Assembly (NCBI GenBank): GCA_947579605.1 | Contig: OX388325.1 | Location: 12,209,572-12,273,571 of the forward strand | Direction: 5' to 3' | DNA: 64,000 nt | DNA from: Athripsodes cinereus | Taxonomy: Eukaryota; Arthropoda; Insecta; Trichoptera; Leptoceridae | Part shown: piece by piece, positions 6,180-61,138 of the stretch | Numbering within the stretch: the stretch's first letter is position 1 | Layout of the letters: each line of letters begins with the position of its first letter | Notes under the pieces: model-generated | Told to the model about the DNA's origin: nothing | Seen by the model: the letters and a program-made list of their open reading frames with translations, nothing else | Databases searched by the model: none | Program-made: the position numbers and the translations under genes

Positions 6180-7807
<1,628 letters not shown>

Positions 7808-10060: not shown

Positions 10061-11144
10061 TCCCTAGATGATGATGGTAATCGTATTTTGGGATTTTTTA
10101 CTGTAATGCTTTATAACCACGGAGTATAATGCGTTCAGTATCACGTATGCACGTGCCTTAGGCTTGTGTAGTAGGTACATGTACTAAGTACTATTAGAAA
10201 TTAGTTCACAGTACTGTACTAGAACGAGCTATTCCCTATCTTAAGTCGTTCTTTTAGGGCCGCGATATCCAAAACGTTAACCAAGTAGCTAGCTTGTTGT
10301 CAAGAGTTAACCATAAGTTAATTCAAGAAATGGTGATATCCTATGTCTGTTACGGAGATAACAAGTGGTTATTTATAACCACCCGATTTTCATGAGTTAA
10401 CTATCGAATCCAGAAGTTAACTTTGAGAATGAATATTTTTTTCGTCTGTAGATGGTGCTATATATGTCATCAATTTGACAGTTACATAGTTTGTCATTTT
10501 GGTTTGAGAATATTGTGTTATAATAATATAATATATTGATCAAAACTGAATAATTATCTTCATAATAATGTTGATACATCATCCGATGAACAATATTATT
10601 GATACTTTCAAAACACTCGTCAACATAAGCAACACGTTAAAATTTAAAATGGCGGCTCCAAACAACCAGTGAAGTGTCAAATAACTTCCCTAGTGTTGCC
10701 ACTCGTACGACAAAAGTGCGTAAAAATTAAATTTCAACCGATTTGTACTAAGGTATTGCCATATGTGAATACTGTTTACATCACTACAGAAAGTTAATCT
10801 CTGGTTAAGTAACCATTGTAAATTATTTTTATGATATCACCAAACGCCGAACATGAACAAGTTAACTCATAACAGTTGATTACTTAACCACTGGTTATAT
10901 TCCCATTCCCATAATCGGACAGAAATGAAGATGAAGCGATGCCGATGACTTTCGGCACCTCCGCTCGGTGCCACCCGGTTTATCTCGGAACACGAGACGT
11001 GTGCCAGTGAGATAGTTGACGTGATGATTGTATGGAGGATTATAGCAACACCACCTTAAGTGCCTTCTCTTTTGCCTCTTATTAGTTCTGTGACGTTATA
11101 TTTAGTACAAAAAATAGATCAGATAGATTGGAACGCCCCCTTAA
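10061..11144. other. gene-free upstream region, possible relic MITE
   Basis: Upstream of the finger gene. Between about 10260 and 10920 the motifs GTTAAC and AACCA/TGGTTA recur in both orientations near the two sides (AACGTTAACCAAGT left, ACTTAACCACTGGTTA right), which suggests an old inverted-repeat element. No coding frame is convincing. Confidence 0.3.
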
Positions 11145-16804: not shown

Positions 16805-16979
16805 GATTGGAAATTATGAGGAAAAAAATAAAGTCAGTAGTTCAATATGTTACACTGTTACACTTGTATATGGATGTGTCGAGTGCAATATCAAGGAATG
16901 CACCAATGCGGGTAACAATAACACACAATGGGCTTGGTAATTCTAATTACTTTTGAAGTTTGTACTTACTGATCGCGAG

Positions 16980-26241: not shown

Positions 26242-29200
26242 TTATTTTACAATTCTCCTATCAACTTTGGAACTCCATTTGAACTTTTCTCCGTGTTTCT
26301 TCAACATGTGCTTATTTAAACTAGGACTATGTCTAAACTTAATTTCACATAAAGGACAGGCGTAATTTTGCTCTTTAGTATGCTTCCTGCTATGTGTTTT
26401 AAGTTCGCCACGTGTATAACACATGTGATTACACGATTCACACGGAAAATTACGCACACCAGTATGTCGTTTAATATGCACATCTAACGCGCCTTTACTA
26501 TGACAACTAAACTCGCAAAACGTACATTTATACTTACGTTCTTTATTTTTATCATGAACACGAAGATGGAGAATTAAACACGATTGTGTAACGAAAGAAT
26601 GTCCGCAGTATTCGCAACTGTATCGTTTTATCTGTAAATGCCTATTCATATGATCGTTTAAAGTTTTTTGTGTTTTCATAGCTTTATTACAAATTGTGCA
26701 AACGAAGTTGAATTCATTGACGTGTACTTTGTGATGATTTTTAAAGATTCCGTAATGTTTAAACTGCCTTCCGCATTCCTGGCACGTGTAATAAGTTTTA
26801 TCGCTGTGGGTTTTCCTGTGCGTGTACAAACTAGCGTGTTGAGCAAAGCTTTTAGGACACTGGTCGCATTGAAACGGCTTTTCACCCGTGTGTATTGACA
26901 TGTGATATTGTAATGTTTGTCTACGTCGACACTTGTAGTCGCATTCAGGGCAGTGGAAGCGTCTTTCAGCACCATAACCTGAAAAATTAATCAAGAGTTG
27001 GAGATCAAATCTTCGCCGGGAATTCTCAAGTAATAATTCAATTTCAAAACAATATATTATTCAAAGATGGGCAAAAACATAACATAACATGTATAGACAA
27101 TTCACACAGACCGAGCTAGTCCCAAACTCAGATATGAATCTTGTGTTATGGGTACTAACACGACGATACACATATATACAATGCACTGAACACATATACA
27201 TGTAACACCCAGACCCAGGACAATTTGAAAAAGGTCATTCTTCATTTTGCCCTGGCCGGGAATCGAACCCAGGATCTAGTGACTCAAAGGCAAGTGCGTT
27301 AGCCTCCGCGTCACACCGGTCGTCATAAATGAAGAATCTGCCAAACAAAAATAGTATAAAAAATATAATTATGGTGAATTGGCATTGCAGTGAGCAGCTG
27401 CCCCCATTCAAAAGTCAGACTGAACATAGGCTAAATAAATTGGCATCTTGGCATACCTGGAAGCTGATAAAGGCCCCAGAACTCAAAAAGAGAGGTAAAG
27501 ACTAGAAAAAAGGTGATATTTATAAAAAAACTTGAGCAATGTTTCAAATTCTATAACTAATTTGACGAATTTAATTAATGGGTTATTTAATTTTAATTTT
27601 GTTAATAATTATCTGAATAATCATTACTTTGTAGTAATTTATTCACAATTCATACATAACTATTTTATTTTGATGTTTTTTTTGTTATGTAATTGCATTT
27701 TATTGCTATTTCTGAACTTTTGATTATTTCATTTGAATTGTCTATATTCCGATTAGTTTATTCGCGCCCTTGAGATGGTCACGGATCATTAAACGGCGCC
27801 AAATACAAATTATCTTTATTATTATTATTTATTACTTATTATTTTGAAATACTTGATGTAGGTATATATTACTTAGAAAAGAAGAAAAATAAAATTTAAT
27901 CTTCAATTCTGTTTTTTTTTAATTGTACTTGTTTGATTGTAGGAAATTCTTTTTGTTTCCGTTAATAATTCATTATTTTTTAATCCTTGACTAGTGTGTA
28001 TGTGAATTTGTGTTGTGTATATTTTTGTACTCTGTCTAATATTTCAACACGTAAAAGGATCACGCTGTATGCAACTGTACAAAAAATGATTTTTTAATTA
28101 CATTTTCTTTGTTCCTTAGGGTGCAAACACAAAGAAAGCAGGTTACCTGTGCCGATCGGTGCAGGTAGGCGTCTGCAAAGTAAATCGCCGATCGGCGTTC
28201 CTGCTTTTACTATGTGCGTGTTCATTGAAATGCATGTAACCATTCTATTGCTCCGATCGGCACCGGTAGACGCAGGCATCGGAAAGCAGGTAACCTGCTT
28301 TCTTTGTGTTTACCCTTACACCAAATTTTAAATATAGGATGCATAAAAATAAGTTATTTTCCCAACTCCCTGTACCAAATTGTGACAACTCAAAATAAAC
28401 AAAAGGGTCCAAGTTAAGTAAACAGAGAGTTGAAAAAATGAGTTTGCTGAGCTTATTTGGAACAATCGAATCATTCCAAGTTGCTGCCCCTCCCTTCCCC
28501 CCTTGAAAATATTCTGGGTACACCCTCCATACCCATTATTTTCTTTTATTTATTTATTTAAAAAAATGGGCAACATACAATAAAATTTTACAAAATATAA
28601 CATAATAACCATTAAACATATTTCTTGTACTTGATCATCTTGTACCATCTTTGAGTTCATTATTGCCAGTACAGTACAAACACAGAAAGAAAAAAAGAAA
28701 ACAAAAACAAAAACTAAACAAACATTTCATTCCTGTCTAATGTGGCTCCTAAAAAGGCTCCTGGACATACAGAATATGTCCACGGACCTCACCTTCTCCA
28801 AATTGTTTATGTGGTAACGCATCGATGTAGTGGTGAGTTCTGAGCAGCATTAGTACTTTTTTTACTTAAAAAGAAAGTCGAGGTGTGTCTCGTTCGTCTA
28901 TTTGGTATGTTAAAGGTAATTTTTGCTAAAAGGTCTGTACAGTCAATATTTGAGTTTATTAAATCGTAAAGGTACAAAAGGTCTGAATTTCTACGTCTTG
29001 TATGTAATGTCTGTAATTCGTTTTTGTAGTTGTTGCCAAATTTGTAGTTCATATGTCTCATTATAATCATAGAAATGTTTAATTGTGTTAATATTGTATT
29101 GTAAAAAGGTGTAAATAAATAAATGTGACTATACCTGTAACGGGGCCAATCTCTGGTTTTTTTGGTCTTATGGGTCTATCCTCGCCATGCATAACTTTTA

Positions 29201-29936
29201 AATGTTTAGCCAATATATATTTAGTCTTAACACTTTTATTACATATCTCACAAATATATCTATGTTCATCTCCTTCTATGAACTCTCCAACATTCTCTTC
29301 ATTATTTAAATTTGAATCTGAAGATTCTATTTTCAAATTAGCTAATATAATATCTTCATCATCAATTCTGTGTTTATTTTGTTTATTATTGAGATCAGTG
29401 TTGCCACCGCTTTCACTGTTTTGTTTCCGTTTCTTTTTTGTTTTTTTCACAGCAATGACGACAGGTTCTGACATTTCTAAAGATGTATCGAAAAAATCGT
29501 CGCAATCAATATTTTTTTCTTGTTTAATTTTGCAATCATCAATGATATCTTTCGTTCCTTTTTCATTAATTATCTTTAAGTTTTCTGTAGTGTCGCTTAT
29601 TAATACTTTTCTGAGCAACATATCAGCTTGCTGACACTTGATTCTAAATAAATGTGCTATGTCTAAATTGTAATGACAAGGTCCACATATTAGTTTAGGC
29701 AGATTGTCTTCCTTATGAACTATTACACGACCACACATCATGAGTTTTTCACAAACTCCAACAGCAGCAAATTCATCAGATGAAGGTGTCACCTTGCACT
29801 CACCATCTTCAGTCACATCCTCGTTAAATAAAGGTGTTACACTGCATGGGTCTTCACACAGACATACTCTGCAAAGATTCTGTATTTTACTGGGATCTTT
29901 GCAAAATAGCTCAAATAACTCTTCCTCCGACTTCAT
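26242..29936 (-). CDS. ZAD + nine-finger C2H2 transcription factor, two exons
   Basis: Exon 1 is 29936-29135 and exon 2 is 26978-26242; the donor is ACAG|GTATAG and the acceptor TTTTTCAG|GT, joining as VTG-YGAERRF in phase 1 (512 residues). I start at the ATG 29936 (MKSEEELFELF); an upstream in-frame extension lacks ATG. Residues 22/25 and 84/87 (LCRVC, ICGPC) are the four ZAD zinc ligands; ZAD domains dimerise insect zinc-finger factors. An acidic linker with KKTKKKRKQ (nuclear-signal-like) leads to finger 1 (YICEICNKSVK) and eight more in exon 2. The C-terminus ends in a conserved EKFKWSSKVDRRIVK tail shared by the two next genes on this strand. The 2.16-kb intron holds a SINE, a Harbinger-like MITE and LINE debris. 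Target genes cannot be read from sequence. Confidence 0.9.
27075..27330 (-). mobile_element. tRNA-derived SINE, family 1
   Basis: On the minus strand a tRNA-like head carries an A-box-like GTGTGACGCGGAGGCTAACG region and the B box GGTTCGATTCCC, followed by the body ATTGTCCTGGGTCTGGGTGT through GTGTGAATTGTCTATACATG and a short ATGTT tail. The body recurs 5'-truncated at 36421-36575. Confidence 0.75.
27331..28118. other. intron stretch without recognised features
   Basis: AT-rich part of the intron of the first ZAD gene; long T-rich frames are compositional. Confidence 0.3.
28119..28315. mobile_element. PIF/Harbinger-like MITE, 197 bp
   Basis: Terminal inverted repeats GGGTGCAAACACAAAGAAAG (left) and GGGTAAACACAAAGAAAG (complement of right), continuing to the palindromic AGCAGGTTACCTG. 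Flanked on both sides by TTA (28116-28118, 28316-28318), the three-base target typical of PIF/Harbinger. GC-rich interior with repeated CCGATCGGC/GCCGATCGG motifs in both orientations. Confidence 0.75.
28560..29090 (-). pseudogene. LINE C-terminal fragment in ZAD-gene intron
   Basis: The minus-strand frame at 29070-28807 reads YKFGNNYKNELQTLHTRRRN, SDLLYLYDLINSNIDCTDL, FNIPNRRTRHTSTFF, a pattern of Jockey/R1-like RT C-termini (RRRxSDLxxLYxLINxxID). It sits within 50 bp of the splice donor of the first ZAD gene. Confidence 0.65.
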
Positions 29937-31957
29937 ACTGACGCCTGATTGTCTAGACACAAATAAGCACTTGAATCAATCGATAAATCTTCATCTATCA
30001 AATATCATTCACAAAAATTCTCAACGAAATACATGTTGAGATTTTACGCTTCTCCAACAATTTCGATATTTAGCCATAAAATCTGTATGTTATATTAATT
30101 TCAAACGCTTATATATTATAAATTGTCACATATTTGATTGATGCGATTAATTAAATGTGTGTGCAATGTATGAATATCTTTAAGAATTAATCATAATAAA
30201 TTGTGCATCTACGACCCACCCCCAACAAAAAAATTTTGACAGGCAACAGAATGTTTGACATCTAGAGAATCATAGACAAAACTGTAAACATAAATAAAAT
30301 ATCGTAACTAGATGAAAAAAATATATTTTCCACTTTTATGTCGTTTATAGGTATATAACACAAATCACTCGTTACGGGTGGATTGCCGGTAATAATAAAA
30401 AAAAAAATATAGGTATATAACAGTTTCTCATATAGCGTAACACAACACACTTGGGGTAACCACCGTAGAGATAGGACCTTCTTAATAATAAATTATGATT
30501 GCTCTCTATTCAAATGCGGAGTAAATCTACACATTTAATAAATGCTCAAGCTATTTGATCCTCAAATGATTACTCATATATGTTTCTAAATACTTGAATG
30601 AATTTTTCGGTTGTTTTTCTGCAAGTTTTGAAATATAATGAAAGCAGGCTTGAATTTAACTGTACCTGAGTGCCATTTAGTCTTAAGTACTCAAATGCCA
30701 TTTTCAAATTCAATTTTTTAATCAAAAAAATCTCAACATTTTGCTAGTAATAAGCTGTATATAAAGCTTATTACATGGACCCTAAGCATTTCTGTACTTA
30801 AAGACTCACGCTTGTTGAGTTATTTCCGCTTTTTTCGTAACTTTGCCATTTTTCTCAAAAATGCACTTGAGTCCTAATGGCTCTCATGTACAGTTATTTA
30901 AATACAAATGTACATAATATATACTTATTTATTTATGCCTCTCATTCTGGATGTCTTTATTTTTTTATTGGGAAAGGATTATTGAATCGTGGTCTGCAAA
31001 AACCACACATGTCGCATTTTTTTATTTTATTGCAAAAAATGTTCCTAATGTGCGGTATCTATGTTATTCTGTAAAAGCCATACAACTACCATAGTTCGAT
31101 AAATAAATACGTGATTTTCGCATGGTCTGTAACACAACACAAGTACAATAAGTGTATATTGTTTGGCATGGTCTGTAAAAACAACACAAGTACAATAAGT
31201 GTATATTGTTTGGCATGGTCTGTAAAAACAACACAAGTACAATAAGTGTATATTGTTTGGCATGGTCTGTAAAAACAACACATGTTCAAGACCCTTAATG
31301 TTCTCTGCTACTCGTCTGACTAAAATATTATATGTAGATAAACTGTATTACTATTTATCAAGTTATTCAACCAATAAATTACATTTGTATAAATTTAATA
31401 TTGAAATATTCTACCTAAATCGTGAAATAAAACAGCAATTTTTTTATTTTTTGTAGATATATTTTTTATAAAAATTACATATCTTTATAAATTGATATTT
31501 CATAAAACAAAATCAGATGTTAGATGGTATGAACATGTGACAAATGATAATAATTATGATTCGGTGCAGAGTGCAGCTGTACCATAGCACTTAGTAAATA
31601 TATCTAGTAGTCTCTGTATCCACTGATTGAATACAGTAAAAGTTCTGATTATTGAGAATGTCCAATGATAGTTAGACAAAATGAGACCCGTCCTTTCGTT
31701 CACAGCATTTCCAAAAATCTGGATATCCCTCTTTCACAATACACCGTTCCTTTGACAACATCAGTGACACCAGACCATCAGGAATCTCATGTGAAGAGGT
31801 GATTCAATTAGTGTAAAGATGCTCTCAATGGAGGAGGTTTATTTCTGCCCTGTGCTCTGGATAGAAACATTAAAGGACGATTGAATGGAATTATGATCCT
31901 AATTAGAACATCACGTGTTACCATAGTAAAAAATATGTTATGGATTAAATTAATAAG
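29937..31957. other. intergenic region between ZAD genes 1 and 2
   Basis: No gene. It should hold the promoter of the gene that starts at 29936. It contains a 47-bp tandem repeat (31121-31283), and near 31780-31860 a GAGGAGGTTTATTTCTGCCCTGTGCTC block that also occurs near 59360 and 59660, i.e. a dispersed LINE-type tail. Confidence 0.4.
31121..31283. repeat. 47-bp tandem repeat, 3.5 copies
   Basis: CATGGTCTGTAA starts at 31121, 31167, 31214 and 31261; the unit continues ACAACACAAGTACAATAAGT. Frames seen across it on the minus strand are repeat artefacts. Confidence 0.9.
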
Positions 31958-33490
31958 TTATTTGACTACTCTTCGATCCACAGTATCGCTCCATTTGAAT
32001 TTCTCTCCGTGCTTTTTCAACATATGACTGTTAACACTGGTGCTTTGGCGAAATTTCATATCACAAATCGGGCAAGCGTAATTCTGTTCTTTAGTATGCT
32101 TTCTAATATGAAACTTCAACGTACCGCGAGTAAAACAAGTATAGTTACAATATTCACAATGAAAATTACGTTCACCTGTATGACGCTTGATGTGAACATC
32201 CAGTGTACCTTTCGAATAAGAACTGTACGAACAAAATGTACATTTGTGTTTGCGTTCATCGTTATGAACACGTAAATGTTGAAGTAAATCAACTTTCGTT
32301 ACAAAAGCTAAACCACAAAATTCACAACTGAACTTTTTAATTTGTAAATGCCTATTGATATGCTCATTCAAAGTCTTTTGTGATTTTAATCCTTTGTTAC
32401 AAATATGACAAACAAAATTTAATTCCGAGTTGTGCACATTTTTATGTTTATTAAACGAATCCTTGTGTTTGAATTGTTTCCCACATTCGGCGCACGTGAA
32501 ATAAGTTTTATCACTATGGGACTTTTTATGCGCGTATAATCGCCCATGTTGCGTAAAGGTTTGAGGACATTCATCACATTTAAAAGGTCTAGCGCCTGTG
32601 TGAGTTGCCATGTGATATTGTAAACCTTGTCTACGGCGACATTTATAATCGCATTCGGGACAATGGAATCTTTTTTCATCTCCTTTGCCCGTCACTAACC
32701 ATTCTTCCTTCTCTTTAGTCGCAACTTTTCTATTCTCTCCATGAAATGTTTTCATATGTTTTATAAAAACATATTTTGTAGACAAAGCTTTGTTGCACAA
32801 TTCACACATATACTTATCATCATTTTTTATGTTCAAATCAATACAAAATTTTACATCACATGTAGTCTTATCATCATCTAAACAAATGTTAAATTTGTCT
32901 CCAGTTCCGTCAACTGCGTTTGATTTTAATAATTTTCTTTTTCGTTTCTTTTTGACAATATTTGGCACATCACATTCGATGAGTTCGCCATCATTAAAAA
33001 TTAAATCATTATCTGATTCTATACATTCTTTTTTAATTTCTTCAATAGAATCATCAATCGTAGACAATAATTTATTATTCTTTTCTATAGCAATTATTGG
33101 CTCATTATCGAAATGTCTTTCTTGTTCTTCCTTTATGAAATTGGACATACTATCTAATACTTTTCTAAGCAACATATCTGCTCGCTGACACTTGATTCTA
33201 AATAAATGTGCAATGTCTAAATCATATTGACAAGGTCTACAAATAAGTTTAGGCAGTTTGTCTTCACTATAAACTTTTACATGACCACACATCATAAGTT
33301 TTTCACAAACTCCAACAGCAGTAAATTCATCAGATGAAGGTGTCACCTTGCACTCACCATCATCAGTCACATTCTCATTAAATAAAGGTGTTGCATTGCA
33401 CGGATCTTCACACAGACATATTCGGCAAAGATTTTGTATCTTACTGGGATCTCTAGACAACAAATCAAACAATTCGTCTTCAGTTCTCAT
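31958..33490 (-). CDS. ZAD + nine-finger C2H2 transcription factor, single exon
   Basis: A 510-residue protein from ATG 33490 (MRTEDELFDLLSRDPSKIQ). ZAD ligands are Cys22/25 and Cys84/87; the ZAD is nearly the same as in the gene at 26242-29936, including the KVTPSSDEF insert. An acidic linker with KKKRKRKLLKS (nuclear-signal-like) precedes finger 1 (YMCELCNKALS) and eight C-terminal fingers, ending KFKWSDTVDRRVVK. Finger order and spacing match its two neighbours, so the three arose by tandem duplication. The VTG-KGDEKRF junction is continuous here, where the first paralogue has an intron. Expected to be a nuclear DNA-binding regulator; targets unknown. Confidence 0.93.
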   Translation of the reverse strand: MRTEDELFDLLSRDPSKIQNLCRICLCEDPCNATPLFNENVTDDGECKVTPSSDEFTAVGVCEKLMMCGHVKVYSEDKLPKLICRPCQYDLDIAHLFRIKCQRADMLLRKVLDSMSNFIKEEQERHFDNEPIIAIEKNNKLLSTIDDSIEEIKKECIESDNDLIFNDGELIECDVPNIVKKKRKRKLLKSNAVDGTGDKFNICLDDDKTTCDVKFCIDLNIKNDDKYMCELCNKALSTKYVFIKHMKTFHGENRKVATKEKEEWLVTGKGDEKRFHCPECDYKCRRRQGLQYHMATHTGARPFKCDECPQTFTQHGRLYAHKKSHSDKTYFTCAECGKQFKHKDSFNKHKNVHNSELNFVCHICNKGLKSQKTLNEHINRHLQIKKFSCEFCGLAFVTKVDLLQHLRVHNDERKHKCTFCSYSSYSKGTLDVHIKRHTGERNFHCEYCNYTCFTRGTLKFHIRKHTKEQNYACPICDMKFRQSTSVNSHMLKKHGEKFKWSDTVDRRVVK

Positions 33491-33861
33491 GTTGACAAAT
33501 TAAATTAACATAAACTAGCCCAATTTCACACTGAAATCTTCAAAACAACACTCTTTACTGCACTCGTGATGTGTAAATTTGTTCAAAAACTGTTTAAAAA
33601 TTAAATTTATCAGACGAATCACAAAATATGATTATAAATTTATATGTTTACACCCCACGCAATACCACAAGGTCAAATTTATTTTGACATTGAAATGACA
33701 GTTGCCTTGACAACATAATAACCCGCCATTGTTTGTGTGATGCTTAAAGCCCGGCTTACACTATTAAGAACACTTGTAAGTGTAAAACACTATACAGGAC
33801 AGAAACCAACCTCCTCCATTCAGAGCGTCTTTGCGCCAAATGCGTCACCTCTTTCCAGCAT

Positions 33862-34133
33862 TGCCAGACGTACGGTAATTACCGTATTTGTACGGTAATT
33901 TCATTCCCCGTACGGTAATAATTTTAACAAATTGCCGTGCGAATAACATATTGACATAAACAATCATCGGTACAAATACCCGTTACATTGTAAAAAAAGG
34001 TACTGTGTGAGAAAATATTCATTAAGAAAACCGAGGAGTTTTTGAAATATTCCAAATTCCTATACCATTTCAAAAAATTGGCGACGGGGGGGGGGAGTAG
34101 AAATACCCGTTACTTTTTGAAAAGGTACTGTTG
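33862..34133 (+). repeat. G-run repeat unit, copy 3
   Basis: The block AAGAAAACCGAGGAGTTTTT, TATACCATTTCAAAAAATTG, GCGAC, G-run, GTAGAAAT is present, preceded by several GTACGGTAAT copies. Lies in the promoter-side region of the ZAD gene 31958-33490. Confidence 0.5.
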
Positions 34134-34545
34134 TATTTCCGATGTGTATGGTATTTTTTTCACCGAAGTAAGGTAATTTTGGCAACACAATCTGGAAACC
34201 CTGCCTCTTTCTGACATTAGTCATAGCATTACCTATATAATGTTTAAGTTCCCACATGGTTCCCAGTTCCCACACGTCCAACAGGCACGGGCAAGCCAGA
34301 AGCAACCTCTCCAGGGGTTATAATGACTACTATCAGTTAGGAGAGAAATAAAAAGACATGTCTTTTTTGTATACTGTACTATTTAATTACAAAATAAAAT
34401 CAGTTGAAAATATTCAAATAAATGCGTACCAATTAATATACAGAATAAAAACAATATTCAATGAATTACTTTTTTCACAGATCAAATATTAGTATCTTAA
34501 ATGATATTTTATTAAATCATTCATTACTCTGCTGTGTATAATACA

Positions 34546-34990
34546 TAAGAGATGCAACAAATAGTATATTTGCCTAATACCGAATATTTTGCAAGATCAT
34601 GTGCCCAATAACCAAATATTCGGCAAAACAATGGCGAGAGTGTGCGGTAATCCCGACTGTGCATCTTCATGTAGGTACATCATAGACATACGTACTAGAC
34701 TTGCAGCGCGCTAAATTTTTGTGTTCCAACATTAAATAACAATAATAATTTTATGTTGTTTCACTCCATATCAAATTAAATTAACTAATTAGATATTTGA
34801 GGATTAATAATTATGTATCTGCAGCTGACAATGAAAAAGCAACAATCTACTAGTTCCTTCCAGTTTTACATTTAAACTATTCAGCAGAATACCGAATAAT
34901 AGACTAAATATTGGTATTTGGCCGAATAGTAAAAATGTTGCCGAACAGGCAGAATACCGAATAGTTGCCGAATATTCATTGCATCTCTAG
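34546..34990. mobile_element. hAT-like MITE (AGAGATGCAA ends)
   Basis: The left end AAGAGATGCAACAAATA and the right end ATTGCATCTCTAG are inverted; inside, CCGAATATT-type motifs recur in both directions, typical of hAT MITEs whose ends read TAGAGATGCA. A related end occurs near 44885-44905. Confidence 0.55.
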
Positions 34991-35008
34991 TATCTATGTA
35001 TACATATA

Positions 35009-35095
35009 TATGTTACGATAGGTTTCTGGGTAATCTACCACTAGGCATGGCAATGACACACAACTAGTAGTTACCCAGAAACCTATCATAACATA
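35009..35095. repeat. short inverted repeat (25-bp arms)
   Basis: Arms 35009-35033 and 35071-35095 (core GATAGGTTTCTGGGTAA and its complement) differ by one base and enclose a 37-nt loop. Confidence 0.8.
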
Positions 35096-35265
35096 TGGTT
35101 CACTCCAAGAAAAAATCTAATAAAAGCATAGATTACATAATTATATATATATTTTTTTTCTCTGACACCATCAATTGTTTCAGGTTGACAATCAACAATA
35201 AATCAAACACAATCATAAATATGAAAATAGTCCAAACCTGGGAAACATACACAAGTTTAAATGTA

Positions 35266-35545
35266 CAGTAAAATCTTCGATATAACAGACGAATTGGAGG
35301 GAGGGTGTGTGCATTAAAGATGAAAGTCTGTAATATAAAATTTGTGTTAAAAATCTTTTTTTTTTTAAAAACTTTATGTATCCAAATATAAATAAAAAAT
35401 ATAAAACACAAATAAAATTCTAACTAATTGTCTCCGGACACTCGTGGTGAAGTGTGACTCGTTTACTTTCAGTTTAATTCTACCAAAAAGGAATGAAATA
35501 GTATCAGGACGTTAAATAGAGGACCGTTATATTGAAGTTTTACTA
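35266..35545. mobile_element. Tc1/pogo-like MITE, 280 bp
   Basis: Left end CAGTAAAATCTTCGATATAA; complement of right end TAGTAAAACTTCAATATAA; TA on both flanks. Non-coding. Confidence 0.55.
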
Positions 35546-36164
35546 TATCAAGATTCTGAAAATGGTTTGAACGTTATAATAAATCAAACCAACATTTTGT
35601 AAACTTTTTGAGTTATGCCTGAAAAATGGTCTCTCAAATGAAAAACAAGGGAGAAAAGAACACCAAGTATGTTTATTGCATGAAACATTAATTTGTTGGT
35701 TACTATGGACAAGGACTTACTTAAGTTTTTACTATCAACACAATTATTATTATATAAATGATGAATATTGAGATTTATTATACAAATAACTTAAAAATAC
35801 AATACAGAGATTCTTCAATGAGTATTATAGAGTCAGTAAGCAGTATTTATAATCTGACGATGATAACTAAGAGTTCATGAAACCAATCATCTGGTACATA
35901 CATAGAACAAGTGTCCATAAAGCAATATGACATTTTGTGATTGATAACAAAATTTCCCCAAAATCGATCCAGCCGTTTCGGAGGAGTATGATAACAAACA
36001 CCGTGACACGAGAATTTTATATATTAGATTTACATTATGTGATCAGTCGATGGAAGGTAAAATGTATGTTTTATATAGATAAATACAAACTGAAACAAAG
36101 TAAAGAATATTTGAAACAGAAATCCTAACATAATTAACATTGACTCTTTATCGAAAAATAAAAC

Positions 36165-36300
36165 AGGTGTTTTATTCTACTAAAGATTTATTTTGTGAGA
36201 GAGGACATTGTCAAGATTGACAATGTCCTCATAAGACGAAAGACGTTTCTCTCACAAAATAAATCTTTAGTAGAATAAAACACCTGTTTTATTTTTCAAT
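36165..36300. repeat. inverted repeat resembling a Penelope-type terminus
   Basis: Left arm GTGTTTTATTCTACTAAAG ... GGACATTGTCAA and right arm TTGACAATGTCC ... CTTTAGTAGAATAAAACAC are inverted copies. The right arm has an extra CATAAGACGAAAGACGTTTC segment whose GACGAAAGACGTTT looks like the 3' half of a hammerhead core; the CTGATGA half is degenerate, so no active ribozyme is claimed. Confidence 0.55.
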
Positions 36301-36420
36301 ATGGAATTCTACTACCTAAACACCGACATAGTGAATAAATTGACTCTTTAAACAAAAAAGTGATACAAGACGTATCTCAATAAAAAATTTCATGGCCGTA
36401 GACAAGACTCGGGATATTTC

Positions 36421-36575
36421 ATTTATACAAATTGTCCTGGGTCTGGGTGTTACAAGTATATGTGTTCAGTGCATTGTATATATACGTGTATCGTCGTGTT
36501 GGTACCCATAATACAAGATTCATATCATAGTTTGGGACTAACTCGGTCTGTGTGAATTGTCTATACCTGTTATGT
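36421..36575 (+). mobile_element. SINE family 1, 5'-truncated copy
   Basis: The body ATTGTCCTGGGTCTGGGTGT through GTGTGAATTGTCTATACCTG and ATGTTAC matches the SINE at 27075-27330 without its tRNA head. It ends about 15 bp from the stop codon of the third ZAD gene, so it may supply that gene's 3' UTR. Confidence 0.7.
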
Positions 36576-36589
36576 TACATTCACCACAA

Positions 36590-38077
36590 TTATTTTACAG
36601 TTCTTCTGTCCACAGTATCATTCCATTTATATTTCTCCCCGTGTTTTCTCAGCATATGTTTATTAACGCTGGAACTGTATCTAAATTTAGTATCGCACAG
36701 TGGACACGAATAGTTTTGTTCCTTAGTGTGTTTCCTAGTATGAAACTTTAACTCGCCTCGCGTATAACACATGTACTCGCAATGCTCGCATTGAAAACTT
36801 CTCGCTTTTGTGTGACGATTGATATGAATAGATAAAGTTTTCTTTGAATATGTACTGTACTCGCAATAAACGCATTTGAACATTTTATCTTTCTTATGGA
36901 CGCGAAGATGCAAAACTAAATCTACTCTCGTTACTACAGACTTACCGCAAAATTCACAACTATAATTTTTAATTTGCATATGTCTGTTCATGTGTTCCGT
37001 TAAAGTCTTTTGTGTTTTAAGACCTTTATTGCAAATTTTACAATAATGACGAACATCTTTATTTTGATGTACGTTATTACGATGCTTAACATATTTCTCT
37101 TTATGTTTGAATTGTTTTCCGCACTCTTGACACGTAAAATACATTTTATCGCTATGTATCTTTTTATGTGCATTCAGTGCACCGTGCTGAGCGAAACACT
37201 TGAAGCAGACATCACATTGAAAAGGTTTCAGTCCAGTATGAGTTGTCATATGATACTCGAGTGCCTGTCTTCGGGTACATTTATAATCACATTCTGAACA
37301 ATGAAATCTTCTTTCAGCTCCGTAACCAGTCACGTAACCCATTTTTAATTTCTTTTCTTCGGAATGCATTTTCTCTAGATGATTTTCTAAAGACATTTTA
37401 GTAGACAGTGGTTTGGTACATATGTCACATATAAATTTCTTATTATTATCTTTTACTTTTGATTCATCTGTTTCATCAACCATTTCATTTATTTTTTCTG
37501 TATCTTCTTCTTGTTTAATATCTGCATCATTTTCTTTACTAATGTCACATTTAATTTTCTTTGTCTTTTTTTCGGATTGCGATCGTTTTTTTCTTTTCTT
37601 TTTGTTAGGAACTTCGGGAATATATTCAGATTCATCATCGTAAAAATCATCAAAATCAAACGCCTCCTGCTTAATATCACCAAGCTGAACATCGCACAAC
37701 ACATTTTTATCATCCTTACACTCTTTTGCATCGACAGATTGTAAAATAGCCGCATCATCTTCCGCTTTAATAGAAAATTCATCGAATATTTTCCTTAACA
37801 CAAAGTCTGATGTTTCACATTTGATTCTGAATTCATCCGCAATGTTTAATTCTGTTCTACACGATTCGCATATTAGTTTAGGTAATTTGTCATCAATATC
37901 AACCTTTACACGAGTACACAACATGATTTTCTGTGATAAATTGCTCAATTTTTCACCGTTCATCTCCAATAACATCATTGAATTATCAACGTCTTCCGAC
38001 AGACAAATTCGACATAACAATTGTATTTTTCGAGGATCACAAGAGATCATATCTGCCAATTCGACTTCGGTCTTCAT
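36590..38077 (-). CDS. ZAD + nine-finger C2H2 transcription factor, single exon
   Basis: A 495-residue protein from ATG 38077 (MKTEVELADMISCDPRKIQ); the frame is open 15 codons upstream but without ATG. The ZAD ligands are Cys22/25 and Cys70/73 (LCRIC, ICESC), with a ZAD about 14 residues shorter than in the two paralogues. A long acidic linker (DDFYDDESEYIPE) and basic runs (KKKRKKRSQSEKKTKK) precede finger 1 (FICDICTKPLS) and eight C-terminal fingers; the tail is EKYKWNDTVDRRTVK. The VTG-YGAERRF junction is uninterrupted. It is the most diverged of the trio and lies head-to-head with Rab9. Confidence 0.93.
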   Translation of the reverse strand: MKTEVELADMISCDPRKIQLLCRICLSEDVDNSMMLLEMNGEKLSNLSQKIMLCTRVKVDIDDKLPKLICESCRTELNIADEFRIKCETSDFVLRKIFDEFSIKAEDDAAILQSVDAKECKDDKNVLCDVQLGDIKQEAFDFDDFYDDESEYIPEVPNKKKRKKRSQSEKKTKKIKCDISKENDADIKQEEDTEKINEMVDETDESKVKDNNKKFICDICTKPLSTKMSLENHLEKMHSEEKKLKMGYVTGYGAERRFHCSECDYKCTRRQALEYHMTTHTGLKPFQCDVCFKCFAQHGALNAHKKIHSDKMYFTCQECGKQFKHKEKYVKHRNNVHQNKDVRHYCKICNKGLKTQKTLTEHMNRHMQIKNYSCEFCGKSVVTRVDLVLHLRVHKKDKMFKCVYCEYSTYSKKTLSIHINRHTKARSFQCEHCEYMCYTRGELKFHTRKHTKEQNYSCPLCDTKFRYSSSVNKHMLRKHGEKYKWNDTVDRRTVK

Positions 38078-39213
38078 TGTGCTGATATTTTTACTTTGTT
38101 TACAAATTAATTCAATACACAAATCATGATATCATTTGAATAATTTTGATAGCAAATAATTCGGACCCATCCACCATCTTAAATATTGACAAATGACAGC
38201 ATTGACAGATAATGACATAGACAATATATTGCATTATTTTTTTCTGGCATAGCATCGTAGATTTTTGCCGATACATTTGTATCAATTATAAATCAAATAT
38301 CGCTTAAATAACAAACAAAAAACTATAATAACACCTATAACTTGTATTTTGTTATATAAAAAAAAAACAGAAAGAAATTCCGTGATGTTTCAAGTTAACA
38401 TACAAATTAATATTTCAAATGTATGTAAACCGCGCTTTGTCATTCAAGTTTGGAAAGGCAGTCTATTTAAGACAAGACTGTTAAGCCTAATGAAAAAATG
38501 AATGAAACATTATAATTATTATCTATTTATTAAATGATAAGTATAAAATATCTATTTCATAAAAAAAAATGCCATCTATTGAATGATTAGTAAAACATAT
38601 CCACATAATCAGCGGAGATGTAAACCATAAATAACTCGTGATTTTGCATTGTACAGAAAAATATACCTTATACACAATACATTAAAGGACATTTTTAAAT
38701 GCAAGTACATATGTTAAATGTTTCATTACGTTAAATAATGTACAAATAAATTTTACTCTTATATATAATTAAAATAAGATATAATTTTGTATACAATCTA
38801 TTAAGGATATGAGTCTTTATGAGTAATAATGATGACACACTTTCAAATCTGTTATCTGACGTATGTTTGTCAATTGTATCGCGAATGTTTATTGTTCGTT
38901 TTGACGTATTGTGATGTTGAATGCAATTAAATAACTATTTTACGGCATAAAATATGCGTAAAACTGTTAAATGTTTATTGATTAAAACATGTAATATAAT
39001 ATAATAAACATTTACGCGTCATAAAACATAAAAAATAGCAAAACTGCGGGTGTATTATTTGTTCAGGATGTGCAAGTAACAGAGATTTCTACCCCATAAT
39101 TGGTTGATAATTACGTTTAAATGCGAGCTATTACAAAACTGCGGTATACCTTGTACGTGTTGCGAATGAAATAATGTCTAGGTGTGTCCATTTTTCGTGT
39201 AAATATTATAAAT
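38078..39213. promoter_or_regulatory. shared 5' region of ZAD gene and Rab9
   Basis: The two genes are divergent and 1.1 kb apart, so this segment must hold both promoters and 5' UTRs. I see AT-rich sequence with several ATGACAG/TTGACA motifs just upstream of the ZAD gene, but no TATA or initiator I would stand behind. No coding sequence. Confidence 0.4.
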
Positions 39214-53919: not shown

Positions 53920-54056
53920 TAGACAAACTGCACTTGGCGATTGACTACAAAGGAATTTTCGACAATAACCGCAACAATAACCCATAGTTACATGGTACAT
54001 TGTAGGTAGATTTTCGAAAATTCCTTTGTAGTCAATCGCCAAGTGCAGTTTGTCTA
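53920..54056. repeat. perfect 43-bp inverted repeat
   Basis: Arms 53920-53962 and 54014-54056 are exact complements (outer TAGACAAACTGCACTTGGCG), with a 51-nt loop. A diverged version of the arm (GTTGATCGCCAAATGCAATT) occurs near 59262, next to another small inverted repeat (AACTTTTTGACAATGTAC), so this is a foldback family. Confidence 0.9.
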
Positions 54057-55250: not shown

Positions 55251-56024
55251 AAATAATGAAAAATAAATAATAATAAACTAATAAACATTGTGAAATTCTG
55301 CCATTTACAAATATATCTCATTTGGAATGTTAAAGTAAAAGAAATAATTAATGAAAAATTAAATATATCAGTGGATCCCAAAGGGGGCAGTATTGCTCCC
55401 CACCGTTCACTGGTGCTTACCAGGGAGCGGTGGAAATCCAGAGAGAATTAGGAGGTGCTAATGTATGCAAATAAATAAGTGAATCGGTCCTTTGAGTACC
55501 AACCCCATAAGTCAGTCAATATAAACTTTTCAGAAATCACTAAAAACTGTTATAAAATTTGAATGAAATGTTGATATCTTACTCAAATCAAAATGTAACC
55601 TACAGTGTACCTATTTTAAAAATTTATTATTTAAAAACCTTTGACTTATGTTGTTTCTCAAATAAACACCATTTCAGGGAACAAAAATCAACATTCTCAT
55701 CCCAGATTATTTATTAAACAACCAAAAATCACTAATTTTCATCATTTTCACCCATGTTAGAGGTTGGCGTTAAGTGTCAGCTGTGAATCGACATGAATGC
55801 ATTTAGTGTAGTAACAACATGAGTCACTGATTTGTGTTGTTTTTCTATTGACTGGCCAAGTTAATCAGCTCAATTTGTATCAAATAGGTAAAAATTACGT
55901 TGTTTCTAAATGAAATAACGTGCGTTTCAAGAAAATGGACCCAAATAAAAAAAAACATTTTTGCTTAAAACCTGACTTATGATGTTTCTCAAATGACTGA
56001 TTCAAATATGTTACGTAACAAACT
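55251..56024. other. gene-free stretch downstream of SCYL3
   Basis: AT-rich. A hAT-like single end (CAGTGGATCCCAAAGGGGGC) lies near 55370. No gene recognised; it probably includes the SCYL3 3' UTR. Confidence 0.35.
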
Positions 56025-56810
56025 TTAAAGTTTATCTGATACATTTATCATAATATCAATAAACCACATCAACCCCACCGACGTTATAATAAACCAAATG
56101 ATGGACTCCAGATTCAACGACATGTTGAAAAAACTATGAGTCGTGTTACTCATGTTATCAAAGTCAAAAAAAATTGTGTTATCATCCGTATAATTACTGT
56201 TTATGTCTTCATCCGAATCAAAAATATCGTCGGCTCTTGTCGAAGATGGCATATTTTTACATTCGTTCACATTTAAATTATACACTTCATATACATGAGA
56301 CATATTGAAGTTATGTTTTTTACTGTCATTTGTTTCATATATAGACTCTTCGAATGACATAAAATAATGTTTGTCATGGATGAAATATTTATCTGAAAGT
56401 ACAGATTTCATTTTGTTACTGTTAAAATGTAAGTGGGATGATTGTGGAGTTTCAATGTCTGCTGTTATAATATCATTTATACGCTCTATAGGATTATCAC
56501 TAAATCTTTCTGGGCGCTCAACATGATTTTTAACTGATTCATTCAAACACTCTATAAGATTTATATTTATTCTCTGCGTACGCTCACTACAATGTTCATT
56601 TGACTCCTCAAAATGCTCAACATCACATTCATTAAATCTATCGGAGTACTCGATACAAATTTGTTTACTTTCATCTGAAAGATTAAAATTGTTTTTGTCA
56701 AATATATCTGTGTGAAGTTGATTACATTCGTCAGAGCGCACGTTTGTAATATCGTGTGTGGTGCTAATATTGCTAATCAAATCATTAGAATCGCTTAAAT
56801 TGTCTAAATA
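56025..56810 (-). CDS. in-frame 261-codon extension of SCYL3 after its TGA
   Basis: Directly after the SCYL3 stop (TGA at 56813-56811) the same frame stays open to the TAA at 56027-56025. It begins YLDNLSDSNDLISN and has no ATG until about codon 133 (MKSVLSD), so it is not a separate classical gene and must be reached from SCYL3. The composition (Asn/Asp/Glu/Ser-rich, few Lys) is like the acidic SCYL3 tail before the TGA. Near the C-terminus SIIWFIITSVGLMWFIDIMI is a single hydrophobic segment followed by only six residues, as in tail-anchored proteins. So long an open frame in DNA this AT-rich is not expected by chance. Options: stop-codon readthrough (context GAT TGA TAT), an in-frame 45-nt exitron (GT at 56848, AG at 56804) that removes the TGA, or a recent nonsense change or sequence error. 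Confidence 0.65.
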   Translation of the reverse strand, partial: YLDNLSDSNDLISNISTTHDITNVRSDECNQLHTDIFDKNNFNLSDESKQICIEYSDRFNECDVEHFEESNEHCSERTQRININLIECLNESVKNHVERPERFSDNPIERINDIITADIETPQSSHLHFNSNKMKSVLSDKYFIHDKHYFMSFEESIYETNDSKKHNFNMSHVYEVYNLNVNECKNMPSSTRADDIFDSDEDINSNYTDDNTIFFDFDNMSNTTHSFFNMSLNLESIIWFIITSVGLMWFIDIMINVSDKL

Positions 56811-59800
56811 TCAATCGTCCCAATCTGTGTCGCCCCAACCATCATTACCTGCTTTTGTTTCGTCATTGTCTACAGGAACGAAATTCAATTTAGAACTAAT
56901 TTCATTGTCTACATTCAAATTTGAAAAAGCCTTTTCATTCTTTTGTTCTATAGTAAAAATACTAGCTTTTTCAATAACAGGTTCCATATCTAAAAAGAAA
57001 TCAAATTCGTCTTTATTCGCCGCCCCGCTTAGGGATGACGTGGAACCATTTTTCGTAACTGTAAACTTTTGATTTTTAATATCCAATTCTGATATATCTG
57101 TCAATTTTCTGGTTTTGGCATCCAAGGCTGCCTTTTGTAAATATAACCTATCAGTACTATTACTATGACTCTTATTTTGTAAACTATTATCTTCTAAATC
57201 TGTGTGAACAGTAGAATCACTTAAACCACCGCTAACATCATTTGAAATGTGTGTATCTAAACTCATTACATCAGAATGATTATTTACATTATTAGTATCT
57301 TCTGTATCCCAATCGCTCCAATTATCATCTTCTACATTTTGCGCGTCGTTCAATTTATTACCATTACTACTATTCAAAACAATCTCGCTGTCAAGATCTT
57401 CACCACCGTCAGGCGAAGGGCGTTCGTGTAAGAATAACGAATGCTCCAATTCAACCGAATCTCTACTACCGAATGTCAGGTCGGAGTTTTCTGACATTAC
57501 TTTCCCATTAATTGCTGTAGTTCTTTCTACATTGCCCGTGGCTAAATTTGATACAAAAGTTTTTTCGTTCGCATCCTCTTCAATTTTATCCAATATGGTT
57601 GGTCGTTTTTGTTTAGTTTTTTGAGGTACCGCTTCAGTTTTGATTCTGGAGTGAGTCAGCGGACGTCCGTCAGCGAAAAGTTTGGATCTTTTGCCACCTA
57701 TAACGGCTGCCGCACCAAGAATTGGGACGAGTTCAGCCAGGCAGTAAAGTGTCATCGATACGAGGTTATCACTTGTATCTTTTATGCCCAGTAGAAGCTG
57801 TAACAAAATAATAATGAACACATTACAGTAGTAGAAACAAATTAATAAACACATTACAGTAGTAGAAACAAATTAATAAACACATTACAGCAGTAGAAAC
57901 AAATTAATAAACACATTACAGCAGTAGAAACAAATTAATAAACACATTACAGTAGTAGAAACAAATTTATCCTTTTAATGATTCATCACTAACAGCCAAT
58001 CTCACAAATAAGGAATAATTACTATTATAATTGTAAGATTCCACTAAGTGACATCATGTCATGTTGTCATACACCAGGGGTCATGTTGTGAGTAACATTT
58101 CGTTTGTAGAATTGAAAGAATAGTAGTAAAAAGTGTTCTTTCAATGTTAAGTTAAAAAAAAAAAATTGTAGATTTTTTTTAAAAAGATAAATCCTTATAC
58201 ACCTTTCACATAAAGCTACTAAAAGCTTGTGTCGCAAAAGGGGAGTTTGCCGGTATCTGGTATCGAACCGCGGACCCCTTGTACTGACGAACTCGAAATT
58301 GAAAGAACACTTTTTTTTAATGAACAAATTTACCACAAAAAAAAAACGTAAATTAAATTAAATTGGTAATAAATACACAAATTAGTATTGGAAACTAGAA
58401 AAAAACATCTCTGGCATTTTAGACAGAAATTTATTTTTTGTTAGGCAGTGAACGTGTTAAGATGAAACATACATACCTCTGGTAGAACGTGAGTAGTCAG
58501 ATCTTCTTTGGTAAATGTGGACGAATATCCTTGGAAATATTTTAACAATAACAGACGAACCTGAAACAGAAACAATGTAATAATGAAAATAAGGAAAAAT
58601 CAACAGTTCATCCAATTTTTTTAAGTATGCGTAAGAGGGACACCCGGGCCGATGGAACCCTTGTGGACGGAAGAACAGTGTTCTTTTTGACCAACTATCA
58701 TTCTGGGCATTCTCAGAACACGACCCAACCAGGACCATCGACTTTCTTTTATCACAGAAAATACAGATCTCCGCTGGGTGCATCGGTGCACAACATCATT
58801 TGTGACATGTTCATACCATTTGACATCCAAAGTCCTTCTACAACACTTGTTTTTGAAACTTAGTATCTTCCCCTCTTGAGCCTTGATTATGTACCAAGAC
58901 TCACAGCCATATAGAAGGATTGGGATGATGCACGCACTGGACAGGTGACATTTTGACTTTCTTTTATCACAGAGAATACCGATCTCCGCTGGGTGTATCG
59001 GCGCACAGCATCACTTGTGACATGTTCATACCATTTGACATCCAAAATCCTTCTAAGACACTTGTTTTTGAAACTTAGTATCTTCCGCTCTTGAGCCTTG
59101 GTTATGTGCCAAGCTTCGCAGCCATATAGAAGGATTGGGATGATACACCCATTGGACAGGCGACATTTTGTCTTGATGCTGAGTCCAGCAGCCCTAGACA
59201 AATGAACTTTTTGACAATGTACCATAACATTATATGTACATTGTCAAAAAGTTTGTTTGAAGTTGATCGCCAAATGCAATTTGTTTTCACATAACACCGC
59301 TCTTATGTATAACAATGACATCAGGTCGTGGGAAAAGGTGACGCAATTGACATAGAGCCGCTCTGAATGGATGAGGCTGGTTTCTGCCCTGTGCTCCTGA
59401 GAGGAGCGTTGAGGTCGATGATGATGATGCGTAAGAATTTTGTGTAATTACCTGTATATCTCTAACTCGGAACATTTTGAGTAGATGTGGAGTGATGTAG
59501 CTTACAAAAACTCTTCTTGTAAAGAGACCAGTGTCACTCGTTTCTCCATCTGAAAAAAAAAAAAATAGAAAAATATCTTGAGGGGTATGTTGTCTATGAC
59601 AACGACATCAAAGCGCTAGGAATGTCGTGGGAAGTGGTGACTCAATTATCACAGAGACACTCTGAATGAAGGAGGCTGATTATTATGCCCTGTGCTCCTG
59701 AAATAAGTGTTGAAAGAGTGCGAAAATTACGAGTGTTTTTTATTTTAATTTACACTTTTACACGACAGATCCTTTTATCTGTTAAATTTAAAAATAAAAT

Positions 59801-61138
59801 AAAAACAACAATAACAATTTGACAGACGAAGATAAAATTACAGTTTGTAGCAGCATGCACATATAAATTGATGAAATTAAATGTTGCAGGTATTTTGCTT
59901 ATTTCTATACTTGTGAGAGATGCTTTGATGCTATAGATAGATAGACTTATGATACATACCTTGCTTAGGAACCAGCACATGTGGTAACAATTTTTCTCTA
60001 GCTGTTGCGTCTAAAAGCACTAATCTAGACAGCAAAGGACCGCTCAATTGTCTAGCAACAATCTCTTCATTGAATCCTTTCAATTTCTCCAACAGATCAT
60101 TGAAAAAGACAGATTTCTCTTTCTCTGTTTTGACAGGCAAAGATACAAAGAACTTATGTATTGATATAAAGTCGTGATTGAAGAAATCGTGTTTTAAGAT
60201 TGTTGAAAAGTTGGGACGCTGACTTGCTATAGGATTCTTCAGTTCCTTCTGACAGTAATTCTTGAAGTCTTGCCAGTACGGCAAATCATCTGTAACAAAG
60301 AAATCATGTAAAATTGTGTAAATTCTTTTAATTTTCAATCTCAAGAGGTCTGCCAACATCTCAGCAAAGACTTAAACATATTTTATCACTCCCTAGAATG
60401 CTCCATTCCACATCTTCTCTCTACTATTTAAAAGAAAAATTTGAATATTTAGCGAGTCATGGCCTACCATTGCGATCCAATAATGAGCGTCTTATGGCAA
60501 TACACTTGTGAAGAATGATTAAAGTAAATATAGGACATATTGGCCTTATACTTAATAAAATTTGAATATTTAGCGAGTCATGGCCTACCATTGCGATCCA
60601 ATAATGAGCGTCTTATGGCAATACACTTGTGAAGAATGATTAAAGTAAATATAGGACATATTGGCCTTATACTTAATAAAATTTGAATATTTAGCGAGTC
60701 ATGGCCTACCATTGCGATCCAATAATGAGCGTCTTATGGCAATACACTTGTGAAGAATGATTAAAGTAAATATAGGACATATTGGCCTTATACTTAATAA
60801 AATTTGAATATTTAGTGAGTCATGGCCTACCATTGTGATCCAATAATGAGCGTCTTATGGCAATACACTTGTGAAGAATGATTAAAGTAAATATAGGACA
60901 TATTGGCCTTATAATTAATAAATTTTCTGAACCTACTTTTGTACGGAAAACTAATTTTGACAGTTGGAGCCTAAAACATCAGGCGACGTCACACTTTACG
61001 TATACGTATGGAGAAAAAATATCCTTACCAATATTCCGTCCTTTGAACACTTCTTCAACCAGTTGAGCGAAGGCATACTGATCTGCAGTTATGAAGCTAT
61101 CTCCCAACTCCTCATTGGGATCTAAAGCTTTGGTATAT
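56811..61138 (-). CDS. SCYL3: SCYL3 / PACE-1 pseudokinase, 3' five exons (5' end outside window)
   Basis: Exons 61138-61029, 60289-59960, 59549-59452, 58560-58477 and 57797-56811, all with AG/GT ends and matching phases (535 residues). The first visible exon is the end of the kinase-like C-lobe (SFITADQYAFAQLVEEVF). HEAT-like repeats follow: ASQRPNFSTILKHDFFNHDF, SGPLLSRLVLLDATAREKLL, PHLLKMFRVRDIQ, VRLLLLKYFQGYSSTF, LLLGIKDTSDNLVSMTLYCL, VIGGKRSKLF. DFFNHDF and GIKDTSDNLV ... VIGGKRSKLF match SCYL3 better than SCYL1 or SCYL2. The remaining 270 residues are acidic and disordered with NWSDWDTEDT and GWGDTDWDD, a Trp/Asp motif typical of SCYL tails. SCYL3 is a catalytically dead kinase on Golgi and ezrin-rich membranes. 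The kinase-like domain's upstream exons lie beyond 61138, probably outside the window. The frame continues past the TGA (separate entry). Confidence 0.9.
57819..57966. repeat. 31-bp tandem repeat, five copies
   Basis: CACATTACAG starts at 57819, 57850, 57881, 57912 and 57943; the rest of the unit is TAGTAGAAACAAATTAATAAA. It sits in the SCYL3 intron from 19 bp upstream of the last exon's acceptor, so the branch-point region is inside the repeat. Confidence 0.9.
58185..58295 (-). mobile_element. SINE family 2 fragment in SCYL3 intron
   Basis: CACCTTTCACA, AAAAGCTTGTGTCG, GGGGAGTTTGCCGG, TATCGAACCGCGGACCCCTTG match the complement of the family's B-box half; the A-box half is missing. Confidence 0.65.
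58610..59225 (-). pseudogene. RTE-like LINE C-terminal fragments, partly duplicated
   Basis: The minus strand encodes CIIPILLYGCEAWHITKAQE, RKILSFKNKCLRRILDVKWY, EHVTSDAVRRYTQRRS, and a second, more worn copy of DVKWYEHVTNDVVHRCTQRRSVFS then SWLGRVLRMP. ILLYGCEAW ... FxxKCLRRIL ... WxGRVLRM is an RTE-type RT C-terminus. Located in the SCYL3 intron on the same strand as the gene. Confidence 0.75.
59280..59430. repeat. dispersed repeat block (CTGCCCTGTGCTCCTGA)
   Basis: ACAATGACATCAGGTCGTGG ... GGATGAGGCTGGTTTCTGCC recurs at 59600-59715, 31780-31860 and inverted at 33785-33845. Probably the 3' tail of an RTE-like LINE. Confidence 0.55.
60443..60926. repeat. 121-bp tandem repeat, four copies, in SCYL3 intron
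   Basis: GAATATTTAG starts at 60443, 60564, 60685 and 60806. Units are nearly identical apart from a few point changes. On the plus strand the first unit reads protein-like (FEYLASHGLPLRSNNERLMA), joined upstream to MLHSTSSLYYLKEK, so the repeat probably arose from a fragment of a transposon ORF. 121 is not a multiple of three, so the frame is lost between units. Confidence 0.9.

Follow-up and report, generated by a model that had tools for sequence, protein, structure and literature searches.

In the caddisfly Athripsodes cinereus the reading frame of the gene for SCYL3, a protein of vesicle traffic, stays open far beyond its stop codon, which raises the question of whether, and by which route, the protein is extended there. 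The window analysed (64,000 nucleotides of contig OX388325.1, assembly GCA_947579605.1) carries the 3′ part of this gene on its minus strand, and directly after the terminal TGA the frame continues from position 56810 to 56028, i.e. for 261 codons, up to a TAA at 56027-56025, as an earlier note on this DNA had reported. We tentatively propose that caddisfly SCYL3 has a lineage-specific translated extension of 261 codons, a reading which we hold to be somewhat short of probable, and that the extension would most likely be reached by readthrough of the UGA, which is slightly favoured over a near-equal route by splicing.

SCYL3, its family C terminus and the open frame

The window gene was assigned to SCYL3 on the basis of its best full-length matches, which are SCYL3 orthologues (316 matches among 7,991 scored candidates). 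The 120 relatives referred to below are those listed of these 316; their identity to the window protein is 34-53%, and many of them are named "protein-associating with the carboxyl-terminal domain of ezrin". Genome searches covered 716,239,008 bases in 160 contigs, the window being located on contig C21 (21,428,489 bases). Five SCYL3 coding exons lie in the window between 61138 and 56811, and the extension follows the last of them:

61029..61138, minus strand: SCYL3 coding exon (YTKALDPNEE...)
59960..60289, minus strand: SCYL3 coding exon
59452..59549, minus strand: SCYL3 coding exon, donor CAG/GTAATT
58477..58560, minus strand: SCYL3 coding exon
56811..57797, minus strand: last exon of SCYL3, with the end GWGDTDWDD-TGA (TGA 56813-56811) that is canonical for the family
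56025..56810, minus strand: in-frame extension, an open frame of 261 codons plus the TAA stop

The N-terminal exons were located in the DNA upstream of the window and supply an ATG start (MGNDSSHLSGLEVNEKAVEITDFW) for a protein beginning with MGNDSS; together with the five window exons they make the gene look intact. An MGN or MMGN start, which we take to be of the myristoylation type, is found in 108 of the 120 relatives. As in insect SCYL3/PACE-1, this start is combined with a kinase-like domain, a HEAT-like region (a Pfam match under the cut-off) and a C-terminal Trp-Trp motif; a search of the PDB with SCYL3 yielded nothing useful. In a maximum-likelihood tree of the window sequence and 41 of the 120 listed relatives, 25 rows taken as lepidopteran form a group without the window at 100/99 support. 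The window is placed just outside them, as expected for a caddisfly, and the source is thus not lepidopteran, a possibility that the earlier note had considered.

The TGA at 56813-56811 appears from comparison within the family to be the normal end of SCYL3. In 117 of the 120 relatives no more than 20 residues separate the last tryptophan from the C terminus, and two of the three exceptions (77 and 81 residues) look truncated or differently ended and bear no similarity to the extension. Among the rows taken as lepidopteran, 39 of 40 have their last tryptophan within 5 residues of the end. Alignment of 12 chosen relatives with the window protein shows both tryptophans of GWGDTDWDD to be invariant, and the C termini of these relatives fall 1-4 residues past the second one, compared to 2 residues for the window TGA. 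The concern that the TGA might be a sequence error or a segregating nonsense allele was rejected on account of this position at the conserved C terminus of the family. The quality of the assembly is also high, its published quality value (QV) being 59.3 (PMC11544197); its published annotation was produced in protein mode.

A chance origin of the frame behind this TGA was already judged unlikely in the earlier note, and this is borne out by several counts. Under a first-order Markov model 261 open codons are expected by chance with a probability of 10^-7.7 to 10^-9.4. The three sense frames of the extension contain 0, 20 and 50 stops, respectively, and in 5,000 dinucleotide shuffles the number of stops in frame 0 never fell below 9. 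A sample of twenty 10-kb stretches, placed arbitrarily in the genome, contains 26,529 stop-to-stop runs, of which 9 reach at least 261 codons. Each of the nine matches Pfam at E <= 0.001; three are gene-like and six mobile-element-like (IFT140, an EF-Tu/EF-G GTPase, DUF1676, three reverse transcriptases, two gag-protease-like frames and one DDE endonuclease). The threefold periodicity of the extension is matched by 28 of 8,861 genome windows, whose stops had been taken out beforehand. A chance open frame was rejected on the strength of the Markov odds, the stop counts and the shuffles, and the extension is probably coding. Its first methionine is codon 134, in agreement with the absence of an ATG over about 130 codons noted earlier.

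Two tandem repeats were seen by eye in the introns of SCYL3, one of ca. 120-nt units at about 60440-60900 and one of ca. 31-nt units at 57815-57965, just ahead of the acceptor of the last exon. Length polymorphism in these repeats could affect splicing.

Anatomy and origin of the extension

The extension is acidic, as had been described, with 49 Asp and Glu against 19 Lys and Arg residues. Its most hydrophobic 19-residue window comprises residues 237-255 with a Kyte-Doolittle value of 2.19 and is followed by NVSDKL, so that the hydrophobic segment indeed ends six residues from the C terminus. No other segment of the extension exceeds 1.6. A single-sequence AlphaFold2 model of the extension gives a predicted local distance difference test score (pLDDT) below 50 for residues 1-232, and only a helix of residues 234-260 is confident.

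56046..56102, minus strand: predicted C-terminal hydrophobic helix, tail-anchor-like, extension residues 237-255 (Kyte-Doolittle and predicted fold)

Among 1,912 pseudo-frames derived from noncoding DNA, an equally hydrophobic segment occurs anywhere in 524, in the last 30 residues in 48, and at the C terminus with nothing above 1.6 elsewhere in 10. Of 5,000 residue shuffles, 16 contain such a segment anywhere and one contains it at the C terminus. The window part of SCYL3 proper has one stretch reaching 1.93, which is located in the conserved HEAT-like region and is probably a buried HEAT-like helix rather than a membrane-spanning one. In contrast to insect SCYL3/PACE-1, where 117 of the 120 relatives end near the last tryptophan and none has a comparable hydrophobic stretch in its last 60 residues, the frame considered here closes with such a stretch; the helix is therefore not part of the ordinary SCYL3 C terminus. 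The arrangement resembles that of tail-anchored membrane proteins in that the hydrophobic segment is within 30 residues of the C terminus and is the single one in the extension. It differs in that the anchor would be confined to one isoform and its insertion is a prediction.

Scans of the extension against Pfam and NCBIfam gave only two Pfam matches far under the cut-off, which were taken as chance. No second copy was found in the genome by protein or DNA search, a statement that covers the extension and, with 40 of 543 candidates scored, the last exon. A duplication of the SCYL3 tail as the source was rejected, as no significant self-similarity was detected. A mobile-element origin was likewise rejected, since there is no second copy and a repeated element begins only past the extension stop:

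55474..56008 (approximate), minus strand: repeated element of ca. 535 bp with a terminal inverted repeat of ca. 38 bp

This repeat starts ca. 16 nt beyond the stop. Twelve of 14 compared copies align along its length at 82-89%, one copy aligns from immediately past the extension stop, and 39 further long matches were scored genome-wide. It begins only after the stop and hence did not give rise to the extension.

Routes past the TGA

In the readthrough scenario the normal SCYL3 product would terminate at the conserved Trp-Trp motif, and a near-cognate tRNA would, as in numerous insect genes, allow a small share of ribosomes to decode the UGA. Readthrough would add an acidic, probably disordered linker of ca. 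230 residues and the C-terminal hydrophobic helix, which might insert as a tail anchor. The kinase-like domain, the HEAT-like region and the now-internal Trp-Trp motif would all be retained in this long form, which would be fixed to a Golgi or endoplasmic reticulum membrane. Codons 1-45 of the extension, which a spliced form does not need, are also open, with a chance probability of 2.4-4.6% according to Markov per-codon rates (6-10% for codons 1-34). Their stops per frame amount to 0, 3 and 8, like most of the remaining extension, and their periodicity reaches a level attained by 265 of 9,527 windows. An open and periodic frame in this segment favours readthrough.

The case shares with known insect readthrough genes (PMC5100048, PMC3840789, PMC4528330) the UGA, the in-frame extension, its size and its periodicity, and also the predicted transmembrane segment, which occurs in some of the known extensions. 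UGA accounts for 61-76% of the readthrough candidates of flies and mosquitoes, a C follows the stop in 49-63% and RNA structure is present in only 9-10% of the known cases (PMC5100048); annotated fly extensions mostly measure 8-300 residues (PMC4528330), and eight fly extensions carry predicted transmembrane segments (PMC3840789). Unlike these genes, SCYL3 has a T next to the stop, lacks RNA structure, has a candidate in-frame splice route and is known in this form from one caddisfly. Literature searches returned no report of readthrough of SCYL3 or CG1344 and none of stop codon readthrough in Trichoptera; those on tail-anchored readthrough forms returned nothing bearing on the present case.

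Several observations weigh against readthrough of a translated extension and have to be set beside this. The base following the TGA is T and not the usual C, and folding reveals no stable RNA structure at or past the stop, so that a stop-proximal structure as the signal was rejected. A good in-frame splice pair able to bypass the stop exists. No homologue of the extension was found among 5.8 billion proteins by a search that needs shared five-residue words; as the listing names no caddisfly SCYL3, this absence says little. BLASTP of the extension against the 120 listed relatives gave a best E of 0.064, located off the C terminus, a result tempered by the fact that annotators rarely include readthrough extensions.

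The composition of the extension belongs to the same side of the balance. Its coding signal varies with the training set, from z = 4.0 when zinc-finger genes dominate the training, through 3.1 with another set (2.9-3.2 by the position measure) and 2.1-2.5 with mixed training, down to 1.2 for codons and 1.6 for positions with the cleanest set, by which SCYL3's own tail scores 5.2. This cleanest set consists of IFT140, EF-G, DUF1676 and the core and N terminus of SCYL3, the SCYL3 tail being held out. Synonymous codon choice alone carries no signal (z = 0.94). The composition is thus intermediate, a character also reported for recently evolved fly extensions (Dunn et al., PMC3840789). As better training sets weakened the signal, we rely on the open frame and its periodicity instead. 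Within the extension, codons 1-45 lie below codons 46-90 by the position measure with every training set tried (with the cleanest one this measure is lowest for codons 1-45, z 0.1), and above them by codon usage trained on the SCYL3 tail (z 2.2 vs 0.9); codons 136-180 are equally low in several composition tests. The composition of codons 1-45 is ambiguous.

The strongest competitor, only a little less likely, is that the last coding exon contains an optionally removed intron, 174 nt (or 141 nt) long, whose removal would join SCYL3 in frame to the rest of the extension:

56675..56848, minus strand: candidate 174-nt intron, CAG/GTAATG ... AATCTTTCAG/A, in frame on both sides, removing GNDGWGDTDWDD, the TGA and codons 1-45
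56708..56848, minus strand: second candidate intron of 141 nt with the shared donor 56848 and the acceptor CACACAG/A

Splicing would cost the protein its final 12 canonical residues and take out the TGA together with codons 1-45 (or 1-34) of the extension; the retained intron would yield the canonical protein, and its removal would replace the Trp-Trp motif by the tail anchor. Scored with fly matrices, which are untrained on this genome, the donor at 56848 is the top GT of the last exon (3.0, compared to 3.2-5.6 for the gene's four donors in the window) and matches the donor at 59451 except for position +6. Of the acceptors in the extension's first 410 nt, the top two (exon starts 56674 and 56707, scoring 3.6 and 2.6; the five real acceptors in the window score 3.2-7.1) are both in phase. 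Either joined frame stays open to the end, with window parts of 739 and 750 residues, respectively, compared to 535 in the canonical form. The lower score of codons 1-45 by the position measure also favours splicing. However, the score sum of 6.6 is below those of the gene's four real window introns (8.0-12.6), and an equally good pair is found at 853 of 10,000 anchor points in the window and at 1,077 of 9,000 elsewhere in the genome, i.e. it is not rare. Moreover, splicing would leave codons 1-45 (or 1-34) noncoding, yet codons 1-45 are open and periodic and surpass codons 46-90 when codon usage is trained on the SCYL3 tail. A retrocopy of the last exon that could show the splice was not found among the 40 of 543 candidates scored, most of which match the downstream repeat. 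The candidate resembles exitrons, or optionally retained introns of last exons, in having a donor inside a coding exon and acceptors past the stop in the same frame; it differs from them in being known from sequence alone and in scoring below the gene's own window introns. Literature searches on exitrons in insects yielded nothing useful. The exitron of 45 nt (56848 to 56804) suggested in the earlier note is unlikely, as its acceptor scores -2.25 and the same donor has far better acceptors at its disposal. The former claim of readthrough is accordingly kept in part: the frame after the TGA is coding-like, but readthrough is not the sole good route past it, because the 174- and 141-nt introns rival it.

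A separate, caddisfly-specific gene on the minus strand, of which the frame would be the last exon with one or more upstream exons of its own, and which would share the SCYL3 frame by accident, is unlikely. A tail-anchored protein can stand alone, and 4 of 7,515 TGAs in 200 kb precede at least 261 open codons because a gene or mobile element follows, so that coincidences of this kind do happen across the genome. On the other hand, all nine comparable long frames have Pfam matches, compared to the two far sub-cut-off ones of the extension, for which neither a homologue nor a second copy was found. In addition, the lack of a methionine for 133 codons demands an upstream exon, which was looked for only via acceptor scores.

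Slightly less likely still is an extension devoid of function, in which stops were lost through occasional leakage or former coding use and which provides no regulated isoform now. The intermediate composition (z 1.2-4.0 by training set) fits this view, as it is also reported for recently evolved fly extensions (PMC3840789). In our judgement, 261 stop-free codons together with a helix so well placed that only 10 of the 1,912 null frames match it exceed what weak leakage should keep.

Selenocysteine insertion or A-to-I editing, both of which would act on the TGA, is very unlikely, and for selenocysteine this agrees with the earlier note. There is no selenocysteine insertion sequence (SECIS) match within window positions 50-60 kb and no genome candidate for SepSecS (the search controls being prokaryotic, without an insect positive control). 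Of 19 matches to the tRNA-Sec model (53 of 34,435 candidates scored) the three above the cut-off are tRNA-Ser(TGA) according to ARAGORN, and the caddisfly Limnephilus lunatus is reported to be devoid of selenoproteins and their machinery (PMC5330540). As to editing, the sequence around the TGA folds no better than shuffles do in five windows, which indicates no local duplex. The Rfam tRNA-Sec model matches clustered tRNA-Ser genes on contigs C2, C7 and C22; since the matches over the cut-off are tRNA-Ser(TGA), passing the cut-off does not by itself establish that an insect has a selenocysteine tRNA.

Surroundings of the gene and biological meaning

The remainder of the window contains a cluster of C2H2 zinc-finger genes at 26245-38131 on the minus strand, two of which both measure 513 codons:

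29091-29975, 31961-33499 and 36593-38131, minus strand: zf-AD zinc-finger genes
26245-27060, minus strand: C2H2 fingers only

Long C2H2 finger arrays at 6406-7086 and 7811-10063, also on the minus strand, are separate from the zf-AD cluster, and the plus strand is open there over long stretches as well (343 and 251 codons). An element resembling those without long terminal repeats (non-LTR-like) extends over 11701-15447 on the minus strand and combines endonuclease, reverse transcriptase and RNase H in one frame of 1,249 codons, which is preceded by a 479-codon frame without a Pfam match (15377-16813); a second reverse-transcriptase fragment is located at 5236-5988 on the minus strand. A sub-threshold mir-3938-like match at 53922-54054 scores nearly equally on both strands (63.1 and 62.5, against a gathering score of 94); such symmetry suggests that it is a palindromic repeat and not a microRNA.

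For SCYL3 itself, the earlier note had contrasted a soluble with a membrane-anchored form. The tail-anchor-like helix predicted for the long form is in line with this, but the contrast is too simple, because canonical SCYL3 is probably already membrane-associated by virtue of its conserved MGN, myristoylation-type start. The C-terminal Trp-Trp motif, we infer, resembles the acidic tryptophan motifs that bind delta-COP and have been described as a class (PMC7145657). A second acidic Trp-Trp motif, WSDW, is found in the last exon at 57309-57320 on the minus strand, its W-x-D-W pattern being invariant in a 13-row alignment, and SCYL3 may carry two delta-COP-type ligands.

With somewhat more reserve than we attach to the extension itself, we consider it possible that readthrough of the ancestral stop yields a doubly attached, tail-anchored form of a probably myristoylated, COPI-linked scaffold, in which termination would set the membrane-fixed share. 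The two routes past the TGA make opposite predictions. Readthrough would keep the Trp-Trp motif internally and add the anchor, whereas splicing would swap the motif for the anchor. Either route represents a known type of event, and the interest of the locus is moderate pending confirmation. If true, the switch from motif to anchor would provide a clear case of one gene tuning its membrane attachment via the C terminus, and the long lineage-specific extension of intermediate coding character would be useful for studying the origin of new C termini.

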